From Apoderus coryli (lineage: Eukaryota; Arthropoda; Insecta; Coleoptera; Attelabidae), in contig OU452199.1 of assembly GCA_911728435.2 (NCBI GenBank), forward strand, positions 37,211,253 to 37,275,252: DNA of 64,000 bases, given 5' to 3'. Made by a program: the position numbers and the translations under genes. Below are positions 6,120 through 64,000 of the stretch, piece after piece. Below the pieces are notes generated by a model that was given only the letters and a program-made list of their open reading frames with translations, made no database searches and was not told the DNA's origin. The number at the start of each line of letters is the position of its first letter. Position 1 is the stretch's first letter.

Positions 6120-6378
6120 ATACCGCAAATACAAGATGGTAAACGAAAAGAGTGTATTTGGCGACATCTAGTTACGTTGGCAATATGCCGAGTGATCAGA
6201 AATTCACTATATCACTGACCCCATCAAGTGCAATCACAAACACATAGATGCGCCGATACTCCCTAGCGGGGTTGTTTAATAAAACAAGACTTATATTTAG
6301 ACAGGAGGTAAGAAGAATGTATACTTAGTGGTTGACAGACAAACTCTCGAAAGGTCTTGTTTTGCTCAACACCTCCGT
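6120..6378. repeat. Decayed copy of the hammerhead palindrome family
   Basis: This matches the reverse complement of 42640-42900: both contain GTATTTGGCGACATCTAG, then CACATAGA with GCGCCGATACTCC, then a GTTTAA(C/T)AAAACAAGACTT arm. The copy here also ends in an inverted arm (6333-6378: GTGGTTGACAGACAAACTCT then TCTTGTTTTG), so the palindromic layout is a property of the family. The central ribozyme sequence has been lost here. Two copies 36 kb apart in one window show a dispersed element. Confidence 0.8.
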
Positions 6379-6409
6379 AACAAGATGATAATGATTTTCA
6401 TGAAATATT

Positions 6410-12129: not shown

Positions 12130-12435
12130 CAAAGGCGACGAAACGACTAAATTGTATAACATTTTTGGTTTTACAAGCGTCTAGGTACAGACTCGAAATA
12201 TCGATTTAAAGCACCTCGCCTGCGTGTTCATCGTGTTTTTGTATCGCATAGTCCGTCACCATATATAATTGTAATTATTATTATACCTGTTTAATTATTT
12301 TTACTATATCCAATAAACTAACCTACTTTATTCAAAAATTGGAATTAAAAAAAAATTGCTGGAAGTGGGATATGAACCCAGGACTTTCCGTACGCAAAGC
12401 GGGTAATCTACCACTGAGCTACACCAGTAACACAC
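12130..12435 (-). repeat. tRNA-like SINE, copy 2
   Basis: On the minus strand 12426-12358 carries a very good A box (TGGTGTAGCTCAGTGGTAGA) and a B box GGGTTCATATCCC, followed by a body with the same AATAAACTAACCTA block as copy 1. The anticodon region is TTTGCGTAC. It is the best preserved head of the three copies; the far end of the body is diverged. Confidence 0.7.
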
Positions 12436-22511: not shown

Positions 22512-22554
22512 GCCACTGATGATGGGACTGGTCTAGTCCCGAAACATGTATGGC
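22512..22554 (+). ncRNA. Hammerhead ribozyme, type I, complete fold
   Basis: Self-cleaving RNA motif. All parts can be read: stem I GCCA (22512-22515) with TGGC (22551-22554); core CTGATGA (22516-22522); stem II GGGACT/AGTCCC with a short loop; GAAA (22541-22544); a minimal stem III AC/GT; and cleavage base A at 22550. One unpaired T sits before stem II, which I recall as common in Penelope-type motifs. Very short stem III hammerheads are known to work mainly as dimers or with stabilising loops. Downstream sequence (TTTATTTTGTGGAGATTCGA) looks like a retroelement end. Activity is inferred from the fold only. Confidence 0.7.
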
Positions 22555-27690: not shown

Positions 27691-28855
27691 ATTTCCTGAT
27701 TCAACAGAAGATGTGCGACATTGGCTTCAGCAGGGATCTGATATCTTTTTTTCAGTCCTATCTGGGTGCAAGGCAACAATTTGTTGAATACAATGGCTTC
27801 AAGTGGAACTCCACCGGGCAGTACGTTGGCTCCTCTTCTCTTTGCAATATTCGTAAACGATATTGGCTCTGGTTCCAATAGCAATTATTTGTTGTTTGCG
27901 GATGATTTAAAATTGTATCGCACTGTTGTTTGTGAGAACGATTGCGCACAGCTTCAAACCGATCTGTGTCTGCTCTCAGAATAATGGTGTGATCTAAATT
28001 GACTTCCTCTGAATCTGAACAAATGTAAGTCGGTGACATTTACAAGACGTCAAGATCCGTTTTAGCGAAACTACTCCATCGATAATTCAAATTTCAAATC
28101 TTGGTGTATACTTGGATGATGATTTATCTTTCAACTACCACATTGAGCAAATTTCTGCTAATGCTTTGCGAATGTTAGGATTTATTTTTTGACAGACCAG
28201 AGAATTCAACAACATAGTCTGCCTGAAAAGTCTCTATTTCGCCTTTGTTGATGGATATTTTCCTCCTCGTGGGTGTGATCACGGCCTGTTACTGACAAGG
28301 TTCGGATTTCGGCCGTTAGCTGAAAGATGCATCTTCGCATGTCAGATCTTTCTTTTTAAGGTGATCAACAATCTGTTGGATTGTCCTCGGTTGCTTCAGC
28401 AGCTATGGTTTCGTGTCCCTAGGGTTCACTCTAGAAGCGCTAGTTTATTTTGGGTGCCACAGATTCGTTCTAATTATTGTGAACCTAAAGAACCGCTATT
28501 TCGGGCTTGTAAATACAGCAACCGATTAGTCATTAATGAAAACGTGGAATTTTTAATGTATCGCTCGATTCTTTTAAGAAAAGTTTGGAGACATGTTTGC
28601 GGGCTACTGATTTGGATTTGTTTGGATGAATTATGTTCATGTGTTAATTATTTATTGTTATTATTAATTGTTCTTGTAATCCTCCCAATTTTCTTTCGTT
28701 TTGATGCGTGTGTTTCCTTTTTTGTATTTTTCAGTTAGTTCTAAGTTGAGTATTATTGTATGCTAATGCTAGGCAATTGTTTTTGTTTATGTAAGATTTT
28801 GTCTTGTTATTGGGTAGCAATACCTGTTAGACAATAAAGAGATTATTATTATCGT
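27690..28855 (+). pseudogene. Jockey-like LINE: RT to C-terminus, broken
   Basis: Reverse transcriptase of a non-LTR retrotransposon. In order: SYLGARQQFVEYNG; PPGSTLAPLLFAIFVNDI (the usual GVPQGS...FIND box) and LLFADDLKLY with the catalytic FADD intact; LNLNKCKSVTFTR; NLGVYLDDDLSFNYHIEQIS; ANALRMLGF; then, after a deletion near 28255-28300, RPLAERCIFACQIFLFKVIN, LLDCPRLLQQLWFRVPR and the weakly similar end. Several frameshifts and stops. The element ends in ACAATAAAGAG followed by ATTATTATT at about 28832-28852, a LINE-type tail. The N-terminal endonuclease and first RT blocks are missing (5' truncation). Confidence 0.8.
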
Positions 28856-42041: not shown

Positions 42042-42579
42042 TATGGAGACTATTAGTTTCATGAAAAAATTTTTTTTTTTTTAATTTCACAGGAAATACT
42101 TGTTTTTGGTAATTTTATACATAAATAAGTAGTTTTAAAAAAATGTCTGTCTGTCAGTCTGTCTGTCTGTCTGTCTGTCTGTCTGTATGCACGAAAACGC
42201 AAAAACTACTTAAACAGATTTTAACCAAATTTGGTACAAAAATACTATAGGACATGGTAAGAAGCTGATTTGATTTTGGGAAACATTGAGCGTAGGCAAG
42301 GGGTTTAAAAGAGGGTTCAAAAATTAAAAAAAATCATAGTTCTTAAACTTATCTAAAATACTGCATAATTTTTTACGCAATTTAATTGAACATAACCTAA
42401 AATATTGAACATAAAATATTAGATCACATTGGCGCTCGAAAATAGTGTAAAATGGGGTAAAAAATATTTAAAAAAAACGTGCTTTTTAAACATAGCAGAA
42501 ATATTAACTAATTAGAAATGGGCTTGTTTAACAAAACAAGACTTAAAATCCGAGAGTTTGTCTGTCAACCACTATACTT

Positions 42580-42623
42580 TCACCAGACGGCCGTTTCGTC
42601 GATCCACGACTCATCAGTGGTGA
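42580..42623 (-). ncRNA. Canonical hammerhead ribozyme, left arm
   Basis: Minus strand, 5' to 3': stem I TCACCA with TGGTGA (six pairs); core CTGATGA; stem II GTCG/CGAC with loop TGGAT; GAAA; stem III ACG/CGT around GC; cleavage base C (GTC). No bulge, unlike the other motifs here. This is the most complete hammerhead in the window and follows the same pattern as insect satellite and retrozyme hammerheads. A self-cleaving transcript is inferred from the fold. Confidence 0.8.
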
Positions 42624-42632
42624 TCGGATCGG

Positions 42633-42672
42633 ATCACTGATGAGTCGTGGATCGACGAAACGGCCGTCTGGT
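42633..42672 (+). ncRNA. Canonical hammerhead ribozyme, right arm
   Basis: Plus strand mirror of the left-arm motif: stem I ATCA/TGGT (one G-T wobble), CTGATGA (42637-42643), stem II GTCG/CGAC, GAAAC (42657-42661), stem III ACG/CGT, cleavage base C at 42668. The stem I is shorter than in the left arm because the centre of the palindrome intervenes. Confidence 0.75.
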
Positions 42673-44267
42673 GATAGTATAGTGGTTGACAGACAAACTC
42701 TCGGAATTTAAGTCTTGTTTTGTTAAACAAGCCTATTTCAAATATGTGCGATCCCGCTTAAGGGAGTATCGGCGCGTCTATGTGTTGGTAGTTGCTTTAT
42801 GGGGTCAGAGACCTCCCAGGCAGCCGATATAGGAACTGTTGTTCACTCGGCGTACTACCAACGAAAAAACTAGATGTCGCCAAATACATCCTTTTACATA
42901 TTAACTAATTATTTAGAGCTTTAATAGAATATAACTTATTAAATGTGTCATAAATAACTTACTTTCATAGGCGTTCGTAAATAGTGGAAAAGAAATATGG
43001 AATGAATTTTCATAGTTGTGATAGAATATAACCTAAAAAATGTTACATAAAAGAATTGGTTCACACAGGCGTTCGAAAATAGTCTAAAAAAAGGGTCAAA
43101 AACGAAAAAAAATTGTTTCTCAAATATACCAGAAAAATTGGGTAATTATATATAGCTTTGATATAAGATAACCTAAAAAATACAGCATAAAATTTGTATT
43201 TACATAGGCGTACGTAAATAGTAGAAAAAGGGGTAAAATGAAAAAAAATTAAAATGTAAAAAAATTTATATTTAACTAGTTGAATTGGTGTTAAAAATAC
43301 ACCACAAAAATTAATGTACCATAGGCGTCCGTGAAAATTCTATAAAAGGGTCAGAAAAAATTTGTATCTGTGATAACTCAAAAACCACTTAACGGATTTT
43401 AACCACATTTGGTACGAAAATACTACAGGATATTTATAGGTGGTGATTAACATTGAGCGTAGACAAGGGGTTTAAAAGAGGGTTCAAAAATTTAAAAAAT
43501 CATAGTTCTTAAACTTATCCGAAATATTGAATAATTTTTCATAGTTGTGATAGAATATAACCTAAAAAATTTTACATTAAAGAATTGGTTCACGCAGGTG
43601 TTCGAAAAAGGGTCAAAAACGAAAAAAAAATGTTTTTCTAAATATAACAGAAAAATTGGCGACTTATATATAGCTTTGATATAAGATAACCTACAACATG
43701 CAACAATTTTGTTTATATAGGGGTTCGTAAATGGTAGAAAAGGGGGCAAAATAAATTTTAGAATAAAACTAAAAAAAAATCAATTATTTTGCGTACAAGA
43801 ACTTGGCGTAGAAGATCTGAAATATAAAATATGTACGTATCAATAGTGCCTCCAAACAGAAGAAAAAGGAACACAACCCGATACTTAGAAAAAATAGCTG
43901 ATGTCTAAAGCAAAAAAATATATATAAAAATTTAGATAAATGACAAAAAGGTCATAAAATTATTACTTTTACACTTAAATATGGAGAGCTATTCGTGCCT
44001 CGAGGGCAACAGTTTATGTTTTATTGTACTGACCGACTGCCGAACCGCTCCATAATGAGCATACTTAATGTACCCTTTTTGGAGGAAATACAGCCTACAC
44101 AGAGGAATACTCTAACCTAACGCCCTAACGTACGCTATTTTTTTTTAATGTGTCGTAATATTTTTAAACATAGACACTTTTTTATTCAATCAACCAATAG
44201 GTACCTACAAATATAAGCGTACAAAGCACTTTATTAGAGGCTACTACTACAGATGATCTCAAGCTAC

Positions 44268-54844: not shown

Positions 54845-56170
54845 TTATTGTTTTTCAAAATATTCCCCATGAAGATCTATACACTTTTGCATGCGTTTGA
54901 ACCAATTGTCGAAGCACTTTTACCACTCTGATTGAGGTATCTCCAAAACGTGCATTCTGAATGCAGCAACCGCTTTTCAGGTGTAGAAAAACGTTAACCT
55001 CTCAGTTTGTTTTTTACGTACGGGAATAAAAAGTAGTCATTCGGTGCCAAGTGAGGACTATACAGCGGATAACTCATCAAATGGATGTTTTGGGTTGGGT
55101 GAGTCGACTGCTGTTTACTTTCGGGCTCATACGCGTAAATCCACGATTCATCACCTGTGACGACTGTACTTATAAATATACTAATTTAATCATTATTAAA
55201 ACTTATTTTAAATTAAAAAATTTATCTTAATATATACCTAAAACCGATTAAATTTTAACTTAAACTTAATAAATAATAACATATTTCTACAAATAGAAAT
55301 TTCTAATCCTACAAATTAAATAAAACAATTTTTTTATAAATTTATGCTAAAAAGCTCATCCCATCTAACAAAACTACTAACCAAAAATAAACCTAGAAAT
55401 TAAAATCATTTAAAAATAGTAACAAAATTTAACCTTTTTCTTAAGAAACTAGATATATTTAAAAACGATAACGTTTCATTTCTAATTATATTTTTATAAT
55501 TTTTATGAAACAAAAAAAATTGAATATAATTCGCTCTTTTAAATTCGAGAAAAATAAATAATTACAGTTAATTAATCAACCCTGATACACAAGGTACAAC
55601 ACAAAATCTTCTTCTTTATATTTAATTATATCACTCACGTAACAAATTAGCTATAATAAAACCAAATTTTTCGTAATAAAAATAAATTAAAATATACTTA
55701 TTTCAAGACAACGTATTTCGAAGCACCGCGATCGTATTTTTTGAGCATTTCTTTCGACCAATCGACACGAGCCTTTTTTTGAGCGAATGACAAATTGTGT
55801 AGGATCCAACGCGAACAAATTTTTTTGACGGTCAAATGTGTTTGCAATATTGAAGGTATGCTGGTCCCACTAATGCCTAAGGTTGTCTCAATCTCGTGAT
55901 AGGTCACATGATGATCTTGCAATATCAGTTCGCGCACAGCTTCAATGGGTTTCGTACAACAACTGATTTTAGACGACCTTCACGAAATTCGTCTTGGAGT
56001 GAACTACGACCACGTTTGAATTCACCATACCATCGATAAACACTGGTCCTTGATGGAGCTTCATCGCCAAAAATTGAATTAAGTTTATCCATGCACTGTT
56101 GCTGACTTAATCCACGTCGAAATTTGTAAAAAATAATCTGACGAAAATGTTCACGATTTAATTACATTTT
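54845..56170 (-). pseudogene. Mariner transposase, split and deleted
   Basis: On the minus strand: FRQIIFYKFRRGLSQQQCMD, FGDEAPSRTSVYRWYGEFKR (first helix-turn-helix), then after a shift VRELILQDHHVTYHEIETTL, GISGTSIPSILQTHLTVKKI, CSRWILHNLSFAQKKARVDW, SKEMLKKYDRGASKYV. After the 521-bp insertion: VTGDESWIYAYEPESKQQST (first catalytic Asp in GDES). A second deletion then joins TQNIHLMSYPLYSPHLAPND YFLFPYVKNKL, removing the block with the second Asp (HDNA), and the C-terminus HGEYFEKQ follows with one shift. The usual start codon is followed by a stop. Clearly inactive. Confidence 0.85.
55174..55694 (-). rRNA. Nuclear copy of mitochondrial 16S rRNA (numt), 521 bp
   Basis: Very A/T-rich DNA, low in G on the plus strand, unlike its neighbours. 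Read on the minus strand it shows phrases typical of the 5' half of insect mitochondrial large-subunit rRNA, in the right order: GTACCTTGTGTATCAGGGTT, then CTCGAATTTAAAAGAGCGAA, then ACGTTATCGTTTTTAA, then GGGATGAGCTTT, then TTTAGGATTAGAAATTTCTA. It interrupts the mariner transposase. The 7 bases TACTTAT occur at both junctions (55167-55173 and 55695-55701), like a target duplication. The assignment rests on recalled rRNA phrases; a partly different mitochondrial origin cannot be excluded. Confidence 0.75.
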
Positions 56171-58494: not shown

Positions 58495-59972
58495 TACAAG
58501 GTGATGCAAAAAAAAACATTAATTAGCCGACATTTAACAAATTTTCTAGATTGCAATCGAATAAATTTTAAATGTTTTTTTTATAACCCTCAATGACTTT
58601 TGCCATAGATAAAACTACCACAAAACGACTGGGCAATCACGCAGTGAGATTATTAATAAATTCCCTAAGAGATAACTAAATAGGTTGTTAAATTTTAAAT
58701 TAATAATTTCGTGGAACGTCATTTTTCTACGAGAAGTTTCTTAGTTCATAAAATAAATAATTATTTAATTTTTTTGCTTTGAGATATTATTTCAACATCC
58801 GTTTGAACTTCATGGATTACTCAGTCCAACAACGTGTGTTTTGCGTAGAAACTTACAAAAGAAGCAATTCGATAGAAGAAGTTAAGCGTGCATTCCGGCC
58901 TCAGTTTAAGAACAACAATAGGGATGCGCCAAATCGTAAAACTGTTAAGTTATGGATTCGTCATTGGCGTGAAAATGGTTCTGTCCAAAATTTAAAGAAT
59001 TTAAAGAAGCCTGGACGTCGACGAACAGTTCGTACACCAGACAATATTGAACCAGTCAGAATTCCGTTTACGAGAAGTCCTAAAAGTCTGCTAATCGACA
59101 AACCCTTATTCTAGGAATATCGAAGGGAAGCTTAGATCGAATTCTTCAGAGGGATTTAAAATTTCATCCGTATAAATACCAAATGGCACAGCACCTTAGC
59201 AATCAAGATAAAGAAGCAAGGTTAGCATTTTGTCGAGAATTTTTGGATTTATATCAAGGAGCAATTCACAGTCTCCTAATGACCGACGAAGCAAATTTTT
59301 ATTTGAACGGCATGGTCAATAAACAGAATTTTAGATACTGGTCAAATGAAAATCCTCGTGAAATCTTTACACAGAACCTCCATAATCCAAAAGTTGTTTT
59401 GTGGTGTGGAGTAGGATCTTTTGGTAGTATTGGCTCTTATTTTTTTGAGGATAAAAATAACCGCGCTGTAACATTAACATCAGAGCGCTACGTTAATCTG
59501 CTAGAGAGATTTCTCACTCCAGAATTAAATAGACGAGGATTACTATAAACAATGCCTTACTATTCCAACAAGATGGGGCAACAGCTCATACCGCCAGAAA
59601 CTCAATGAGGCTCCTGCGAGAAATGTTTAATGGCCGACTCATTTCGGAAATTTGCCTTGGCCTTCGAGGTCCCCCGACTTAACGACACCCGATTTTTTCC
59701 TGTGGGGATATTTAAAAGCCAAAGTGTTTACGAGTCGTCGAGGTACAGTCGAAAGTTTACTACGCCGTGTAATGAACCATTTTTTATTTAAGTTGGTGGA
59801 GGTCATTTAGAAGACGTGATTTTTAAAAGTTAGAATTAAATTAGTGAAGTATTTATAAGTGATCATAAATCCCAAAGAGCTCTAATTGAGTAAAATAAAA
59901 AGTTCGTTTTGTTAACTAAAAAAAATTTTATTCAAATATTAAAATGGGTAGTCTATTATGAGGAACCCTGTA
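58495..59972 (+). mobile_element. Nearly complete Tc1/mariner-superfamily transposon
   Basis: The left end TACAAGGTGATGCAAAA and the reversed right end TACAGGGTTCCTCATAAT are flanked by TA; they match only in the first 9-10 bases. The 1.48 kb length and one transposase gene fit an autonomous copy in early decay. Confidence 0.75.
58812..59833 (+). pseudogene. DDE transposase with DUF4817-type N-terminus, three frameshifts
   Basis: Begins MDYSVQQRVFCVETYKRSNS then IEEVKRAFRPQF, the helix-turn-helix (DUF4817-like) region of an insect transposase family, followed by KTVKLWIRHWRENGSVQNLK and a GRRRTVRTPDNIE linker. After a shift near 59090: LILGISKGSLDRILQRDLKF, HPYKYQMAQHLSNQDKEARL, SLLMTDEANFYLNG (first catalytic Asp), VVLWCGVGSFGSIGSYFFED. 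After a shift at about 59546: LFQQDGATAHTAR (second Asp), and after one near 59650: SPDLTTPDFFLWGYLKAKVF (third acidic residue), ending GGGHLEDVIFKS-like near 59833. All catalytic residues are present; only frameshifts and small deletions break the frame, so it is among the youngest DNA transposons here. Confidence 0.85.
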
Positions 59973-62682: not shown

Positions 62683-64000
62683 AGTAAAGTCATTAGAAAA
62701 GAGAACAGATTTGTGTGTTACTCTTATGGAATCTACTCGCTTCAACAACATACAAACTTACAATACTCGGCTGCCAGACTGTTTTTGAAATTATCGCTAT
62801 CTCAGACCTCGTACTCATTATTCGCGCAATACCGTAACATTTTAGGTAAGATTCAGGCTAGTAATCATACACTGACGTTCCCTATAAATAATAAATCAAT
62901 GTTTCTTCGCCCTACAACCGTTTCTGAGATTCTTAACTATTCGTCACGTATTAAGAATAAACACTCATGTGGCATCGACAACATACCTACTAGTTTAATA
63001 AAATTATCCAGTCCCGATATAGCTAAGGTACTATGTTATATTATAAATAACTCGTTTAAACATGGAATATTTCCGGACCAGCTAAAACATGCAGTTGTAA
63101 GGCCAATTTTTAAAAATGGGGATGCGAGCGAGTTCAGCAATTATAGGCCAATCAATATCTTGTCCGGTTTTTCGAAATTTTTCGAGATGGCCATGTCTGA
63201 TAGGTTGATAAATTTTTTTACTATTTATTCGCTATTAAATGAAAATCAACATGGTTATATTAAAGGTAAAAACACATTCACTGCATTGTTTGAATTTGTT
63301 CGAGCAATCTTGAATGGATTGGAGGGCGGAAATTTAGCTGCTGGAATTTTTCTTGATCTCTCTAAGGCATATGATTGTTTAGATAGAGCGTTGCTTATCG
63401 ATAAGATGGATAGATATGGAGTGCGTGGACAAGCAAAGGAGTGGTTCCAATCTTATTTGACTGGTAGATTTCAACGGGTAGATATTAATGATGTTGGCGG
63501 TAGTTTTTCTTCGAATGTGCTGCCTACAGTGTATGGGGTTGCTCAGGGAAGCATATTGGGACCAATTATGTTTGTAATTTACATTAATGATATTAACGAT
63601 AGTGTGGACAGAAACTCGTGGCATATCATCAATTATGTTGATGACACAACATTGCTAGTTCGAGAAAATATCTTGGCAAATGTAATTTGTGAATGTTCGA
63701 CACTATATGAAAAAACATCAGATTGGCTCACTAAAAATAAATTACTACTTAATGAATCTAAAACAAAAGTCGTTCTCTTTAGAACTAAGAATTCCAGAGT
63801 TCAGAAACCAGAAAGTATGTGCATTGCTGGAAATAATTTCAAGATAGAATGTACTGCAAAACTTTTAGGTATCCAAATAAATGAATTTTTAGAGTGGTCG
63901 GAACATATAAGATCTCTGTTAAAGAAACTAAATTCTGTATGTTTTGCTGTGCGAGTAATTAACAAATATCTAAATAGTCACTGTCTTAAAATTGTTTATT
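62683..64000 (+). CDS. Open reverse-transcriptase frame of a jockey-like LINE (runs off the window)
   Basis: A single frame is open from 62683 (after a TAA at 62680-62682) to the window end, about 439 codons without a stop. Blocks in order: SMFLRPTTVSEILNY, HSCGIDNIPTSLIKL, FKHGIFPDQLKHAVVRPIFK, NYRPINILSGFSKFFE, YSLLNENQHGYIKGKNT, AAGIFLDLSKAYDCLD, GVAQGSILGPIMFVIYINDI, then NYVDDTTLLV with YVDD where FADD is usual, and LLGIQINEFLEWSEHI. These are RT domains 1 to about 9 of a non-LTR element. The endonuclease part is not seen, so the insertion may be 5'-truncated; the start is the reading-frame limit, not a start codon. Intactness suggests a recent insertion. Confidence 0.85.

Follow-up and report, generated by a model that had tools for sequence, protein, structure and literature searches.

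The window analysed here is a stretch of 64,000 nucleotides from the beetle Apoderus coryli (assembly GCA_911728435.2, contig OU452199.1, positions 37,211,253 to 37,275,252) with a GC content of 32%. It carries at 42515–42897 a 383-bp insertion which probably represents a single copy of a non-autonomous, non-long-terminal-repeat (non-LTR) retrozyme with a unit of 333 nt, an assessment that refers to the explanation as a whole, including the mechanism of insertion discussed below. A perfect 14-bp direct repeat at 42501–42514 and 42898–42911 borders the insertion exactly, and a repeat of this length is reached by chance in 4 of 20,000 random flank pairs of the window. An initial annotation had described this place as a near-perfect palindrome (42515–42739) with two canonical hammerhead ribozymes in opposite orientation, and had taken the palindromic layout to define a dispersed element. 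The palindrome was borne out as an inverted repeat at 42511–42743, the arms of which (109 nt, 96% complementary) enclose a spacer of 15 nt. As a measure of the extent of the element it falls short, since the palindrome makes up most of the insertion and the rest of the right arm forms the remainder.

Both halves of the insertion are partial copies of one 333-bp unit, numbered such that position 1 is the base following the ribozyme cleavage site. The left half extends from unit position 292 across the cleavage site to about 71, where it ends in ..GCCCATTTC (end B), and the right half extends from 300 to 229, where it ends in ..CATCCTTTTAC (end A). Coordinates are collected in Table 1.

Table 1. 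Position of the retrozyme insertion, its parts and a second, older insertion within the window.
Feature	Position	Strand	Evidence or remark
Target-site duplication (TSD), left copy ATATTAACTAATTA	42501..42514		perfect 14-bp direct repeat
Left half, putative retrozyme cDNA copy, sense on minus	42515..42627	-	99% to the 333-bp unit (match 42511-42627)
Complete type I hammerhead motif, 6 stem I pairs	42580..42623	-	RF00163, 33.8 bits, and descriptor
Junction filler between the halves, 7 nt	42628..42634		
Hammerhead core truncated at stem I by the junction, 4/6 pairs	42631..42674	+	RF00163, 28.8 bits; junction at unit 300
Right half, putative retrozyme cDNA copy	42635..42897	+	97.7% to the unit (match 42635-42899)
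TSD, right copy	42898..42911		perfect 14-bp direct repeat
Second insertion, older and head-to-head, of a related retrozyme that lacks the hammerhead	6139..6379		matched 6146-6371

Type I hammerhead cores of opposite orientation are indeed present in the two arms, but only one of them is complete. The six stem I pairs annotated for the minus-strand motif are confirmed by a strict descriptor and by the RF00163 match (minus 42623–42580, E 9.6e-7 in a 501-base search), whereas the plus-strand motif (E 4.4e-5 in the same search) retains four of six. Since the plus half starts at unit position 300, within one strand of stem I, and the filler replaces the 5′ strand, this ribozyme was incomplete from birth. 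In the covariance check proposed in the annotation, both motifs match RF00163 but remain under the Rfam gathering score (34 bits), from which the minus motif is 0.2 bit away; at gathering score, no hammerhead was reported in a search of the whole window. Cleavage on the plus strand is predicted nominally after C42668, at the position previously given, and on the minus strand after the C at 42586 (by eye). Within the window, the strict descriptor matches no place other than the two palindrome motifs; across 100 Markov-1 sequences, each 64 kb long, it gives 4 matches when stem I is ignored and 0 when 4/4 stem I pairs are demanded. The E-values and these counts rule out a chance match as the origin of the hammerheads, the two matches being copies of one sequence and hence not independent. 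A looser pattern occurs 9 times in the window versus 5.5 expected, which is not clearly above chance. Other hammerhead-like motifs of the form CTGA.GA...GAAAC lie at 22516 (+), 13305 (+), 8783 (-), 44268 (+), 46987 (-) and 11256 (-); several of these six show a paired stem II by eye and may be remnants of minimal hammerheads of the Penelope type, but none is found at the Rfam gathering score and the strict descriptor rejects all. Matches to microRNA and small-RNA models, all under gathering scores, were discarded, as any near-perfect hairpin yields such matches.

It is formally true, as had been stated, that either strand of the palindrome carries one ribozyme. However, the palindrome transcript is predicted to fold as one hairpin of -195 kcal/mol. 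When full-element transcripts of increasing length are folded at minimum energy, the hammerhead stems are absent at every 3′ end listed. The window copy is hence likely to be a poor source of ribozyme. Transcripts begun at the palindrome centre are predicted to form stem I or stem II at certain lengths, yet the three stems never occur together, and the isolated 44-nt minus motif favours another fold (-16.5 versus -7.8 kcal/mol for the drawn hammerhead). This preference recalls the weak or dimer-dependent activity of type I hammerheads with a weak stem III, while efficient cleavage in monomeric form is reported for most hammerheads of invertebrate retrozymes (PMC7229834; PMC7761336). Judging from the predicted folds, the window copy is probably a dead insert, and a hammerhead palindrome need not mean a functional double-ribozyme design.

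The assembly of the same species (428 Mb, 129 contigs) was searched for relatives. The insertion as query gave 176 matches from the best 40 of 1,358 candidate places. The hammerhead core occurs at 2,603 places with at most one mismatch, compared to 0 for the reversed control, which supports the view that the hammerheads belong to a dispersed element. A search with the RF00163 family, in which 73 of 52,198 candidates were scored, gave 4 matches, 2 of them above cut-off. At one locus (L028), 6.8 copies of a 333-bp unit stand in tandem at 99% identity, with the same hammerhead core in each; RF00163 matches this array at eight places (seven plus, one minus) with 33.8 bits, 0.2 under the gathering score. 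Further arrays occur, and many copies are shorter than two units. The unit has a GC content of 45% and is predicted to be strongly self-paired: its minimum free energy (MFE) as a circle is -119.4 kcal/mol, as compared to -83.4 +/- 5.8 kcal/mol for 100 mononucleotide shuffles. In this fold stem I (unit 1–6 with 296–301), which contains an internal loop, is prolonged by a long second stem (12–35 with 267–290). Stem III of the hammerhead is loopless and self-complementary (ACGGCCGT, by eye). A sister family has the core CTGATGAGTTGTGGATCAACGAAACGGCC, which is complete in L012 and L029 but incomplete or changed in L013 and L018; the copy of this family at L029 5199–5438 is likewise head-to-head. 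The 333-bp arrays led us to abandon a reading of the insertion as a solo pair of Penelope pseudo-long terminal repeats (pLTRs), in which an open reading frame (ORF), with 23 open codons by eye, would start in the hammerhead. Viral contigs were scanned for the core, for the centre of the palindrome and for the tail; one scan gave two places, and the place read is a terminator-like hairpin; a scan of general genome contigs gave 0 matches. Comparison of two ORFs with solved structures gave no match for one and six matches at E 0.24 or worse for the other.

The anatomy of insertion was derived by tiling 40 scored loci (39 fetched regions and the window) with one real unit of L028, leaving out matches below 80–84% identity. 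Two of these loci (L021 and L022), which lie on one contig at a distance of about 181 kb, agree in insertion, TSD and flanks and represent either a segmental duplication or an assembly duplicate; they were counted once, which leaves 39 distinct loci. In 26 of the 39 the arrangement is head-to-head: the left part is sense on the minus strand, the right part is sense on the plus strand, and the sense 3′ ends point outward. The remaining 13 are of single orientation. In view of these 13 and of the 333-bp repeating unit, the statement of the initial annotation that the inverted layout defines the element is not supported; the repeating entity is the unit and not the palindrome. The outer ends of the head-to-head loci lie at two fixed unit positions, 229 (A) and about 71 (B), without A-tails and followed by the TSD. 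The end pairs are A/B in 21 loci, A/A in 0 and B/B in 0, with 5 untyped. A subset of 24 loci, of which the best match is to the right half of the query only, behaves alike (11 head-to-head; 9 A/B, 0 A/A, 0 B/B, 2 untyped). A TSD of at least 10 bp is present at 22 of the 26 head-to-head loci as opposed to 8 of 650 mispaired flanks of different loci, and at 25 of all 39, with lengths of 10–14 bp (12–14 bp in 22 of these 25). If end A is oriented to the right, T is the third base past the TSD in 23/25 and A the second base ahead of it in 19/25, a pattern that cleavage of both strands before NTT would produce. The excess of 21:0 of unlike fixed ends, together with TSDs and private junctions, seems to us the strongest point of the argument.

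The private junctions are those in the centre. The 26 head-to-head loci show 26 different central junctions, e.g. 281/303, 213/10, 301/152, 182/105, and 292/300 in the window. These overlap by at least 3 nt in 12/26 loci (5.8% expected by chance), including L020 and L023, where the overlap lies in a self-complementary part of the unit; filler of 1–14 nt is present in 10/26 and an overlap of 0–2 nt in 4/26. As the junctions all differ, the palindrome is formed anew at each insertion and not inherited. In the search for the palindrome that the annotation had proposed, the inverted layout recurs at the loci tiled, but the exact palindrome does not. That the layout is no chance inversion holds as well, for a reason other than the one given: the inversion recurs through the mode of insertion. 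The window palindrome itself would represent a short two-sided insert in which both cDNAs halted beside the hammerhead.

The two halves of a locus also share alleles. For variants present in at least two loci, rare bases are common to the left and right half in 10 of 20 cases; permutation of halves among the 26 loci gives a mean sharing of 4.4% and a maximum of 25%, with 0 of 5,000 permutations as high as observed. A looser count gives 23/34 shared alleles within loci versus 275/4,857 between loci. Hence, both halves are probably derived from one template molecule or lineage. Furthermore, 58 of 65 halves span the ribozyme cleavage site and 0 end at unit 1–5, which argues that the cleaved linear monomer is not the usual template. 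Six single-orientation inserts of 322–338 nt (L024, L029, L032, L033, L039 and L046) start at 226–243 and end at 228–231, about one lap from A to A, as copying of a ring would give. The alternative that survives best holds that two linear or multimeric retrozyme RNAs, rather than one ring, were copied from both strands. Long arrays could indeed be read-through copies of existing arrays, and laps or halves disagree at common alleles in L036 (at 105 and 160) and L025 (at 197); yet a self-cleaved linear monomer fits poorly with the spanned cleavage site, and the shared rare alleles and the six inserts of about one lap also oppose this explanation, which we regard as rather unlikely.

Based on this dataset, we hypothesize with fair confidence that Penelope-like machinery copies a retrozyme RNA, probably circular, into cDNA on either side of a single staggered break, and that the two cDNAs are then joined. 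Tandem copies would be transcribed, the type I hammerhead would excise 333-nt units, and these would close into rings. A Penelope-like reverse transcriptase (RT) with a GIY-YIG endonuclease (EN), we infer, would make a staggered cut with 3′ overhangs of 12–14 nt, and each overhang would prime cDNA synthesis at a fixed site of its own on the RNA, after unit 229 (A) and after about 71 (B). Each cDNA could extend from less than one lap to several laps, and the cDNA ends would be joined via microhomology or short filler, resulting in a head-to-head insert with a TSD. Two short cDNAs halting near the hammerhead would yield a palindrome with two opposed hammerheads, as in the window, and single-orientation inserts would arise where one side only was copied or where the second copy was very short. 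A more specific version, which we favour by a narrow margin over its negation, holds that one ring, bound by an RT/EN dimer, is copied simultaneously and in rolling laps from both 3′ overhangs, with start sites about half a circle apart, that Penelope-like elements are the helpers, and that this process leaves the head-to-head hammerhead arrays and palindromes behind as its scars.

Strand order was also determined in a sample less biased towards the window. Among the first 100 of the 2,603 core places, those within 1 kb were joined, which gave 68 hammerhead clusters (48 with a single core, 7 with several cores on one strand, 13 with cores on both strands); all 13 of the latter are ordered minus-then-plus. 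The genome contains at least 150 GIY-YIG matches (150/150 scored, of 1,260 candidates), and among these 150 places the neighbouring, Penelope-like pairs within 8 kb are minus-then-plus in 19/19. Two such pairs were read. One (L062) has a 12-bp TSD, with one end at ..GTCAGTTTA and the opposite end 36 nt longer; the other (L063) has a 12-bp TSD as well, with one end at ..GTCAGTTTAG and the opposite end inside a hammerhead-like motif. The motif of both, CTGAGGA..GAAACGCGCGTC, is a hammerhead by eye only, and that of L062 is not listed by Rfam at E 0.05. YVDD motifs lie upstream of EN in L051, L057 and L063, on which the putative RT identity of the GIY-YIG elements is based. The window has no closed ORF of at least 150 aa, and with an insert of 383 bp and a unit of 333 bp the retrozyme is unlike an autonomous Penelope-like element. 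Nevertheless, to judge by its head-to-head order and the TSD of about 8–14 bp, it seems to insert like such an element without being one.

A long interspersed element (LINE) with twin priming might mobilise the retrozyme in place of a Penelope-like element, an explanation which we consider improbable. A broken ORF with RVT_1 at 62683–63999, of LINE type by eye, would be in line with it. On the other hand, both retrozyme ends are fixed and lack A-tails, whereas LINE-1 inserts bear one poly(A) end and the internal second start of LINE-1 twin priming is variable. Microhomology at junctions is a trait that twin priming has in common with the retrozyme inserts. The uniform head-to-head order of the GIY-YIG pairs and the TSDs of the two pairs read also speak against a LINE, the order of LINE copies not having been compared. 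Twin priming (PMC2246262) shares with the proposed retrozyme route that the second target strand primes on RNA and that the product is inverted; it differs in that no ring is involved.

Self-priming, by which one cDNA or antisense transcript snaps back and copies itself into an inverted arm, has been proposed for the inverted pLTRs of Penelope elements in Adineta vaga (PMC3846280), and a few nearly symmetric junctions with a small loop would agree with it (L014, 295/295 with 7 nt; the window, 292/300 with 7 nt). It predicts, however, that the outer ends are alike, since the inverted arm would end where the first cDNA began, while the ends are unlike in 21/21 typed loci, and it has difficulty with the many asymmetric junctions (213/10, 301/152, 182/105) and with halves of differing length; we therefore hold it to be even less probable than a LINE. 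A palindromic foldback DNA transposon or miniature inverted-repeat transposable element with incidental hammerheads, inherited as a palindrome, would account for inverted arms, dispersed copies and TSDs, but the different junctions at all 26 head-to-head loci, which refute an inherited palindrome for the loci seen, the TSD length of 10–14 and the 333-bp tandem arrays leave it practically no chance.

Several observations weigh against copying of a ring from both sides by Penelope-like machinery, and the points we consider weakest are that the RNA and enzyme side depends on inference and that the sample is biased by the query. The loci were chosen by similarity to the window insert itself, and since they were ranked by this likeness, short palindromes and end A are over-represented. 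At five head-to-head loci, automatic typing assigns one end to neither A nor B, although that of L019 reads as B past an internal deletion. No TSD of at least 10 bp is present at 14/39 loci; among the 13 single-orientation loci just 3 have one, and among the six inserts of about one lap only L033. Sites in conflict with a shared template are present in L016, L019, L025, L027, L031, L038 and the window, and arm-to-arm gene conversion could also yield allele sharing. The circular MFE fold of the unit forms stem I only, as a rival pairing supplants stems II and III. On the side of the enzyme, a Penelope-like element with an A or B end was not found by blastn-short against 14 GIY-YIG loci, where the ends gave only weak matches to the EN region (E 0.12 or worse), and Pfam detected GIY-YIG but not RVT_1 on the fragments of GIY-YIG elements tried.

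The element is of a known kind. Animal non-LTR retrozymes share with this family the type I hammerhead, tandem repeats of 150–450 bp, a GC content below 50%, TSDs of more than 4 bp, a highly self-paired unit and coexisting Penelope-like elements (Cervera and de la Pena 2020, PMC7229834), and apart from the rival pairing in the circular fold the family appears to fit them well. An LTR, a PBS or a PPT was not noticed in this family, although no search aimed at them was made. The same source treats target-primed copying of rings as one possibility, with LINEs or Penelope-like elements as candidates, the latter strong. Fixed unlike ends and variable central junctions, as present here, were not found described there, and the terms ‘inverted’, ‘head-to-head’ and ‘opposite orientation’ are absent from its main text; ‘head-to-head’ is likewise absent from the retrozyme papers PMC11722881 and PMC4918200. 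Head-to-head retrozymes were found in no title or abstract among those listed in capped literature searches, such that an earlier description may exist; within that literature, this anatomy of insertion was not found described for retrozymes. Two papers that mention twin priming name Penelope-like elements in their reference lists only. Penelope elements with EN in Adineta vaga share head-to-head inverted pLTRs, TSDs of 8–10 bp, an optional 31-bp tail on one inverted end, which makes the ends unlike as here, and an ORF start region inside the repeat; they differ in encoding RT and EN and in that their inversion was explained by self-priming (PMC3846280). A term search of that paper for ‘hammerhead’ gave no hit. 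The Anolis element PAc shares the hammerhead and an AT-rich target, and its protein cleaves and extends both strands of the target and starts RT at two internal sites; these features, like the inverted pLTRs, TSDs and one-sided tail in Adineta, are in agreement with the insertion plan proposed here. PAc is autonomous, however, and its RT starts are adjacent as compared to about half a circle apart here; hammerhead mutants of PAc were without effect on insertion in vitro (PMC11167929).

The retrozyme paper of 2020 left open which element moves retrozymes and how the RNA ring becomes tandem genomic DNA. If two-sided copying of a ring holds true, Penelope-like elements would be identified as helpers of animal retrozymes, and the inverted pLTRs and one-sided tail of Penelope elements could be explained by such copying instead of self-priming. 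Unlike ends, TSDs, microhomology at junctions and allele sharing can be tested from sequence in any genome bearing retrozymes, and unit positions 229 and about 71 provide exact positions for a target-primed assay.

A second place in the window (6120–6378) had been annotated as a decayed copy of the palindrome, but turned out to be an older insertion in its own right, in which a related retrozyme is likewise arranged head-to-head (Table 1). On the left its minus part runs to end A, and on the right its plus part runs approximately to end B. Within the matched range the plus part covers unit about 5 to 61–72, whereas the minus part starts at about 36 (by eye) and continues to about 229; as the parts meet near unit 5 and 36, the hammerhead is not included. 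A possible 8-bp TSD (ACAAGATG at 6131–6138 and 6380–6387) is not significant alone. The retrozyme at 42515–42897 sits within diverged AT-rich direct repeats at 42300–43780, and a run of TGTC is located at 42144–42189. A tRNA-like match at 12357–12428 (-) has 29 bits (E 0.06), a value equal to the gathering score, and may be a short interspersed element or a pseudo-tRNA. Fragments of RT (RVT_1) and probable remnants of transposases (DUF4817, HTH_48) are located at 62683–63999 (+), 27742–27981 (+), 58761–59545 (+) and 55701–56161 (-).
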